From positions 1-14,150 of the forward strand of contig CAJOFG010000072.1 in assembly GCA_905233965.1 (NCBI GenBank): 14,150 nt of DNA. The letters run 5' to 3'. Of this stretch, positions 5,017 to 6,849 are shown one piece after another. Within the stretch, counting starts at the first letter, position 1. Every line of letters begins with the position of its first letter. The stretch comes from an uncultured Selenomonadaceae bacterium. Its GTDB lineage: Bacteria; Bacillota; Negativicutes; Selenomonadales; Selenomonadaceae. The position numbers and the translations under genes are program-made. Under the pieces are notes generated by a model. It saw only the letters and a list, made by a program, of their open reading frames with translations, was not told the origin of the DNA and ran no database searches.

Positions 5017-6148
5017 TCAGTATTTCAAATCGCGTGACGAAATTTTTTCTTGAACGTAGGAAATAAAATCTTCGACGCTCATTTCAAATCCGTCTTTTTC
5101 GCCGTGTTTGCGAATCGGCAAAATTCCGGTTTCCGTTTCCTTGTCGCCGATAACGATTGTGTAAGGAATTTTCCGGACTTGGCTGTCACGAATTTTTTTG
5201 CCGGTCTTTTCGCTTCGGTCGTCAACTTCGGCGCGGAATCCGAGATTGAAAAATCTTTCCGAAAGTTTTTTCGCGTACTCCGAATGTTTGTCGGTAATCG
5301 GGAGAAGTGCAATTTGAACCGGCGCAAACCAAACCGGAAATGCTCCGGCGAAATTTTCAATCAAGATACCGATAAAGCGTTCGATACTTCCGTAAACGAC
5401 GCGGTGAACCATAATCGGACGGTGTCTTGCTCCGTCCTCGCCGATATACTCCATTTCAAATTTTTCCGGCAACATCATATCAAGCTGAATCGTTCCGCAT
5501 TGCCAAGTCCTGCCGATTGAATCTTTCAAATGGAAATCGATTTTCGGTCCGTAAAATGCTCCGTCGCCTTCGTTGATGACGTATTCGAGTCCGCGATTGT
5601 CCAACGCTTTTTGCAAGGCGTTCGTCGCAACTTCCCAAACTTCGTCGCTGCCCATCGAATCTTCCGGACGCGTCGAAAGTTCCGCCTTGTAAGTCAAGCC
5701 GAAAGTTTTGTAAACTTCGTCGAACAAGTCAATCGTTTTTTGAATCTCCGACTCAATCTGTTCTTTCGTCATGAAAATGTGTGCGTCGTCCTGCGTGAAA
5801 TTTCTGACGCGAAACAGTCCGTGAAGAACGCCGCTTTTTTCGTGCCGGTGAACCAAGCCGAGCTCCGCCAAATGCAAAGGCAATTCCCGGTAACTGTGCG
5901 GACGAGATTTGTAAACCAAAATACTGCCCGGACAATTCATCGGCTTGACGGCATAATCCGCGTCGTCAATTTTCGTGAAATACATATTGTCTTTGTAATG
6001 ATCCCAGTGACCGGAAGTTTCCCAAAGTTTTCGGTTCAAAATCACCGGCGTTTTAATTTCTTCGTAACCGTAACGGCGATGAACTTCGCGCCAATATTTA
6101 AGCAACTCGTTTTGAATCGTCATGCCGTTCGGGTGGAAGAAAGGAACT
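5017..6148 (-). CDS. thrS: Threonyl-tRNA synthetase, C-terminal part (frameshifted from N-terminal part)
   Basis: Catalytic and anticodon-binding part of threonyl-tRNA synthetase, about 375 residues from [14 protein letters not shown] to the TGA at 5017-5019. Class II motifs are present: the Zn-binding Cys in [14 protein letters not shown], motif 2 [16 protein letters not shown], the second Zn ligand in [10 protein letters not shown], and the third in [10 protein letters not shown], followed by motif 3 [15 protein letters not shown]. The anticodon-binding domain follows ([16 protein letters not shown] to [11 protein letters not shown]). This frame is +1 relative to the N-terminal part at 6098-6778. 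It is open back to a TTG at 6204, but those extra residues are out-of-frame shadow sequence; the first internal ATG is at 6123. No credible independent Shine-Dalgarno plus start is visible, so this half probably belongs to a broken or misassembled gene. The coordinates mark the homologous segment. Confidence 0.88.
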
Positions 6149-6778
6149 GAACAAATCCAATTCCTTGCCGAGTTTGCGGTGATCTCTTTTCGCCGCCTCC
6201 TCAAGCATATGCAAATATTCTTTCAACTCGTCTTTCGTTTCAAAAGCCGTGCCGTAAATTCTTTGCAACATCTGATTATGTTCGTCGCCGCGCCAATATG
6301 CTCCGGCGATTGACATGAGTTTGAACGCTTTTACTTTTCCGGTCGATTGAACGTGAGGACCTGCGCAAAGGTCGGTAAAATTTCCCTGAGTAAAGGTGGA
6401 AATTTCCGCGTCCTCCGGCAAATCGGTTATCAATTCGACTTTGTAAGTTTCTCCGGCATCTTCAAACATTTTCAAAGCGTCGGCGCGGCTCAAAACTTTC
6501 CGCTCCAACTTCAAATTTTGTTTGACGATATTTTTCATTTCCTTTTCGATTTCCGGCAAATCCTCTTCGGTAATTTTTTTCTCCGTGTCGATGTCGTAGT
6601 AAAAACCGTTGTCGATTGCCGGTCCGATTGCAAGCTTGACAAGTTTTCCGTCCGCTCCGCCGTAAAGATTTTTTATCGCCTGCGCCATGATATGTGATGC
6701 GGTGTGTCGGAGAGTGCGGAGAGCCTCCGCGCCTTCGACTTCAGCCAAACTTCCGTCTTTCGTTATAACAGTTGCCAT
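6098..6778 (-). CDS. thrS: Threonyl-tRNA synthetase, N-terminal editing part (truncated by frameshift)
   Basis: The first 210 residues are the N-terminal part of threonyl-tRNA synthetase; the last 16 (SSFLPPERH onward) are out-of-frame sequence ending at TAA 6098-6100. The tRNA SAD editing domain, which removes Ser from mischarged tRNA-Thr, is recognisable by HTASH (H25, H29) and DLCAGPH (C138, H142). The linker [18 protein letters not shown] then leads to where the catalytic domain should begin. The usual N-terminal TGS domain (about 60 residues) is absent: the protein starts [10 protein letters not shown] and reaches LRHTASH by residue 29. ATG 6778 is set by the GGAGGAGG Shine-Dalgarno upstream and by a promoter further up at 6821-6849, which leaves no room for a TGS domain. 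If the frame were restored, the enzyme would be about 590 residues. Confidence 0.9.
6139..6151 (-). other. Frameshift/deletion junction inside thrS
   Basis: The N-terminal frame ends its family match at GKELDLF (codon TTC at 6149-6151) and the +1 frame resumes at PFFHPNG (CCT at 6142-6144). Only 10 nt separate LDLF from FHPNG. In E. coli and B. subtilis ThrRS the same interval is about 11-12 codons, including a conserved Gly-containing turn. So about 23 or 26 nt are missing, a number not divisible by three, which shifts the frame. No slippery stop such as the prfB type is present. Confidence 0.82.
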
Positions 6779-6820
6779 GTTTAAAAATTCCTCCTCCGGT
6801 TTTTGAAAATTGCCGTGAAT

Positions 6821-6849
6821 ATTATTGCACCGTTTCAAATTTAAATCAA
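6821..6849 (-). promoter_or_regulatory. Sigma-A-type promoter for thrS
   Basis: Minus strand: TTGATT (-35, 4 of 6, 6844-6849), 17-nt spacer, AATAAT (-10, 5 of 6, 6821-6826), about 45 nt before the thrS ATG. The leader would be only about 35 nt, too short for a T-box, the riboswitch that commonly controls thrS in Bacillota. Confidence 0.62.

Follow-up and report, generated by a model that had tools for sequence, protein, structure and literature searches.

The DNA analyzed here (the window, 14,150 nucleotides) is the entire contig C72 of a draft genome that comprises 1,770,533 bases in 223 contigs and is 85.9% complete. The source organism is a Quinella-like rumen bacterium of the Selenomonadaceae. 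The threonyl-tRNA synthetase (ThrRS) gene, thrS, lies on the minus strand of the window from about position 6778 to 5017 and is spread over two reading frames, in two overlapping ORFs that together cover it (Table 1). Pfam searches placed the editing-type domain in the first ORF and the class II core and the anticodon domain in the second, and the ThrRS profile TIGR00418 is divided between the two frames in the same manner. All three domains of the family are thus present, in the right order and on one strand, and the catalytic and anticodon-binding part (the 3' piece) matches chains of solved ThrRS structures. A single continuous frame that includes the segment opening the catalytic part was not found in the window thrS. 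The likely start of the 5' piece is an ATG at 6778, with start codon and ribosome site judged by eye, and below 6147 this piece continues in the wrong frame. An earlier note on this DNA had claimed that thrS is split into two frames at the start of the catalytic domain, and ORFs, Pfam and TIGR00418 all agree with it. The window contains no N over its whole length, and a search of it for RNA elements gave nothing in Rfam at gathering score. Of the genes in the window with a comparable relative in the stretches sampled for the comparison described below, thrS is the only one in two pieces.

Table 1. Pieces of thrS in the window and the junction between them
Feature	Position	Strand	Basis
5' piece of thrS	6101..6778	minus	ORF 6838..6098; PF07973; TIGR00418 positions 1-184
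Junction, 23 nt of the relatives absent, no N	6146..6147	minus	alignment with relatives; N count
3' piece of thrS: catalytic core, anticodon-binding domain, stop codon	5017..6146	minus	ORF 6204..5017; PF00587; PF03129; TIGR00418 positions 193-564

In DNA alignments, the window thrS is exactly 23 nt shorter than that of 10/10 relatives (five loci of the same genus, the four nearest named kin and one Selenomonas bin), and the shortfall lies at 6146|6147, to within a few bases. The same 23-nt gap appears in four gapped blastn alignments against relatives, two of whose four loci belong to the same genome. Because the ten relatives and the blastn alignments concur, the frame break is confirmed and its size is fixed at 23 nt; of the two sizes proposed earlier, roughly 23 or 26 nt, the larger found no support. 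The absent stretch belongs to the conserved segment, with its Gly-Pro-Gly turn, at which the catalytic part opens, and the claim that a conserved Gly-containing turn is among the missing residues was correct. Outside the junction, thrS is well conserved, with 80-85% identity to relatives, and the homology of relatives to the 5' piece extends across 6146-6787. The nearest named relatives by the catalytic part of thrS are Quinella sp. 1Q5 and 2Q5 and three uncultured Selenomonadales/Selenomonadaceae bins (80-82% identity).

A single frame runs through the junction in 37/37 of the genus genomes whose match spans it, out of 48 searched and counted separately from the L-numbered loci, with which these G-numbered genomes overlap (L046 is evidently G041). 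The gene is present end to end in one frame in 32/48, and partial genes span the junction in one frame in five more (G004, G026, G043, G045 and G047). In G041, only the part of thrS beyond the junction is present, at a contig edge. A ThrRS-level match was absent from 10/48 genus genomes (G001, G005, G007, G008, G009, G018, G020, G022, G028 and G032), which probably reflects their incompleteness. A check for relatives that share the two-frame layout, as the earlier note had proposed, therefore found none among the junction-spanning genomes. G054 was considered as a second case of the same break and rejected, its contig ending at that point.

Two other synthetase genes of the same assembly have lost short stretches. 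Relative to 6/6 aligned relatives, hisS (contig C116, locus L165, position ~6800) is 25 nt short, and proS (contig C93, locus L164, position ~8390) is 34 nt short relative to 7/7, in both cases with no N at the join. The notion that all synthetase genes are broken was rejected, as alaS reads in a single frame and the only interruptions of leuS are contig ends. The leuS gene is split over G000:C87 and G000:C113, at the first bases of both contigs, and its profile matches overlap by 13 positions.

Frame breaks were then counted in a sample of 20 stretches of this genome plus the window (285,008 of 1,770,533 bases, including the already broken C72, C93 and C116). Open frames from 60 stretches of the genus genomes G006 and G048 served as queries, and the comparison was limited to genes with a relative in these sampled G006 and G048 stretches. 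Breaks were found in 11 of the 94 compared genes (88.6 kb), four at N runs and seven without N. All seven N-less breaks are losses, of 16, 19, 23, 25, 25, 28 and 34 nt, although blastn gives one gap of 25 nt for the 28-nt loss. Besides the three synthetase genes, they comprise losses of 16-28 nt at L148 (11714), L150 (5334), L153 (5149) and L162 (706). From our own reading of the sequence, we take the broken gene of L148 to be elongation factor Ts-like and that of L150 to be RelA/SpoT-like. In a search for the TGS domain, the L150 contig matched profile positions 16-60 only, and the match is nearly whole or whole in six genus genomes.

By the same procedure, 2/248 genes were broken in three genus genomes used as controls. 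Singly, these gave 1/73 for G040, whose fragmentation is similar to that of the genome under study, 0/86 for G048 (queries from G006) and 1/89 for G006 (queries from G048). Part of the control set is reciprocal, since G006 and G048 were compared against each other, and both control breaks (G040 L190 and G006 L178) come from segments with 48-50% identity. When contigs C72, C93 and C116 were left out, 8/83 genes of the draft genome were broken (76.0 kb; Fisher P 0.0003 versus the pooled 2/248), and N-less breaks amounted to 4/83 (P 0.037). Leaving out two further contigs that had been seen earlier gave 7/75 (P 0.0007) and, for N-less breaks, 3/75 (P 0.084). A smaller run with 62 G006 frames against the draft genome yielded 8 candidates, and the reciprocal run with 60 frames yielded 1, which is the L153 locus viewed from the other side. 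With G040 frames as queries, no break was found in 20 genes of the draft genome.

The sampled contigs of the draft genome carry 16 N runs in 285 kb, with lengths from 2 to 127 (2, 2, 2, 6, 8, 10, 14, 33, 59, 60, 61, 63, 71, 84, 86 and 127), whereas G040 (277 kb) and G048 (357 kb) have none and G006 has two in 779 kb; some of the runs counted may mark something other than scaffold gaps. Their irregular lengths look like estimated scaffold gaps. At the four N runs inside compared genes, the spacing departs from that of the relative by -11, -4, +2 and +43 nt. In G079, a genome of the same class, thrS contains three 2-N runs (L247, G079:C234, at 1502, 1710 and 1891), and its frame changes at the last of them. 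In-frame gaps of 4-14 residues numbered 9 in the draft genome, 11 in G040, 12 in G048 and 12 in G006, and those with well-conserved flanks numbered 2, 5, 2 and 6, respectively; alongside seven losses that break the frame, no more than three or four in-frame ones are expected, so this comparison is weak. Candidates for N-less in-frame losses that resemble the frame-breaking ones occur at L162 4835 (36 nt) and L161 11172 (21 nt).

The arrangement of thrS could be taken at face value in two ways. If the editing and catalytic parts were made as two proteins, or if the ribosome slipped at the overlap, the two overlapping frames (6098-6204) would have a function, and catalytic-plus-anticodon ThrRS constructs do exist as solved structures. 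ThrRS divided into an editing protein and a catalytic protein occurs in archaea, and the window resembles it in having two coding parts that match editing and catalysis. Unlike in that system, the two reading frames here overlap, no start of its own is evident for the catalytic part, and a conserved segment is lacking. By eye, no ribosome site lies ahead of the TTG at 6204, and in the alignment the segment opening the catalytic part is not encoded; accordingly, no complete catalytic domain with a start of its own was found. The 23-nt segment is not encoded in the window, and a ribosome slip therefore cannot supply the missing residues, as the earlier note had argued for a simple programmed slip. 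Nor is the layout conserved, since all 37 junction-spanning genus genomes have one frame. A literature search on a split threonyl-tRNA synthetase gene found no paper that combines all of its terms. We regard a split or recoded enzyme as extremely improbable. A real and recent deletion in the sampled population, with ThrRS supplied by intact copies in other cells or by an unassembled second gene, has somewhat more in its favor: the genome is only 86% complete and could be missing such a gene, and the rest of thrS is conserved (80-85% identity), as it would be after a recent event. Against it, profile searches with PF00587 and TIGR00418 detected no second thrS in the ~86% complete draft genome. 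Beyond the two thrS pieces they returned only weaker class II matches, on contigs C52 (presumably SerRS), C93 (proS) and C116 (hisS). A search with a degenerate version of the missing motif gave 0 matches in this genome, whereas five genus relatives have exactly 1 apiece, and no genus genome has more than one thrS among the matches listed. The search for a second thrS or thrZ, which had been suggested as a check, thus came back empty; as the genome is incomplete, this falls short of proof. A real deletion in thrS would also not stand alone, as this organism would need several in its essential genes, with the same kind of loss in hisS and proS, and we consider it improbable. More speculatively, each very large cell could hold many chromosome copies, some with 16-34-nt deletions in essential genes that are complemented by intact copies, and the assembly would have caught the damaged alleles. 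Real losses of this kind would be very surprising, the evidence points the opposite way, and we hold the idea to be highly improbable.

Because other indispensable genes of the assembly have lost similar short stretches while relatives are intact, the frame break in thrS is, judged from sequence comparison, very probably an artefact of the draft assembly. Lesions of the same kind recur elsewhere in the assembly and are rare in relatives (11/94 versus 2/248). Two pieces of thrS, separated in the cell by a short unresolved stretch, would have been joined without N, and 23 nt of an ordinary single-copy gene would have been dropped at the join. If the gap at a join was estimated as zero or less, no N would remain and tens of bases could be lost. 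The thrS gene would then be intact in the cell, and the error would lie in a join whose gap size was misjudged, not in another fault of assembly or consensus. A fault of the latter kind, with bases dropped inside a contig by the assembler or the consensus owing to strain variants or low coverage and with no scaffold join, would fit the junction without N and the narrow range (16-34 nt) of most N-less losses. Joins are the simpler common cause, given the many N runs of irregular length and misjudged spacing in this assembly. Within the artefact reading, where it overlaps with the explanation by joins, we allow this fault a tentative minority share.

Several observations stand against an assembly artefact. 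In-frame losses are no more frequent than in the controls, though joins blind to frame should add some, and the excess of N-less breaks is modest once earlier-seen contigs are left out (P 0.037 and P 0.084). Six of the seven N-less losses have a length of 3n+1, which a random join does not favor, a weak point with seven cases. The window itself contains no N, and the G040 queries gave 0 breaks in 20 genes. The losses otherwise resemble the misjudged small-gap joins of short-read assemblies, this assembly showing N runs of irregular length together with short losses that carry no N. Gap sizes, some of them negative, have been estimated and the gaps then joined or closed (PMC3158087); the difference is that this paper reports accurate closures by its own assembler and no such losses. 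A literature search on frameshift and misassembly in metagenome genomes, with those terms together, found no paper. The earlier note had listed three options, an assembly error first, and had chosen none. The assembly error is favored by the losses in hisS, proS and other genes and by the nearly clean controls. The recent lesion alongside a second thrS is disfavored by the failure to find a second copy in the 86% complete genome, and the split enzyme by the missing opening segment and the lack of a ribosome site by eye.

In comparison with bacterial ThrRS as represented by TIGR00418, the window thrS lacks the TGS domain, as do its nearest kin, is 23 nt short and lies in two frames. ThrRS of the Quinella-like genus starts just before the editing part, without an N-terminal TGS domain. 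Pfam searches found no TGS in the 5' piece of the window thrS and none in thrS of the four named nearest kin (L042-L045). The domain is present in thrS of 6/6 other relatives tested, including Selenomonas, Schwartzia and Anaerovibrio, and in seven genus genomes the sole TGS match sits in another gene. Frame breaks in the draft genome come to roughly one for every 8-10 kb of coding sequence compared (11 in 88.6 kb; 8 in 76.0 kb), and at such a density claims of pseudogenes, split genes or missing genes made from it are unsafe. The frame break in thrS is very probably not a real biological feature of this organism, and the absence of TGS from its ThrRS looks like a true loss in the lineage.
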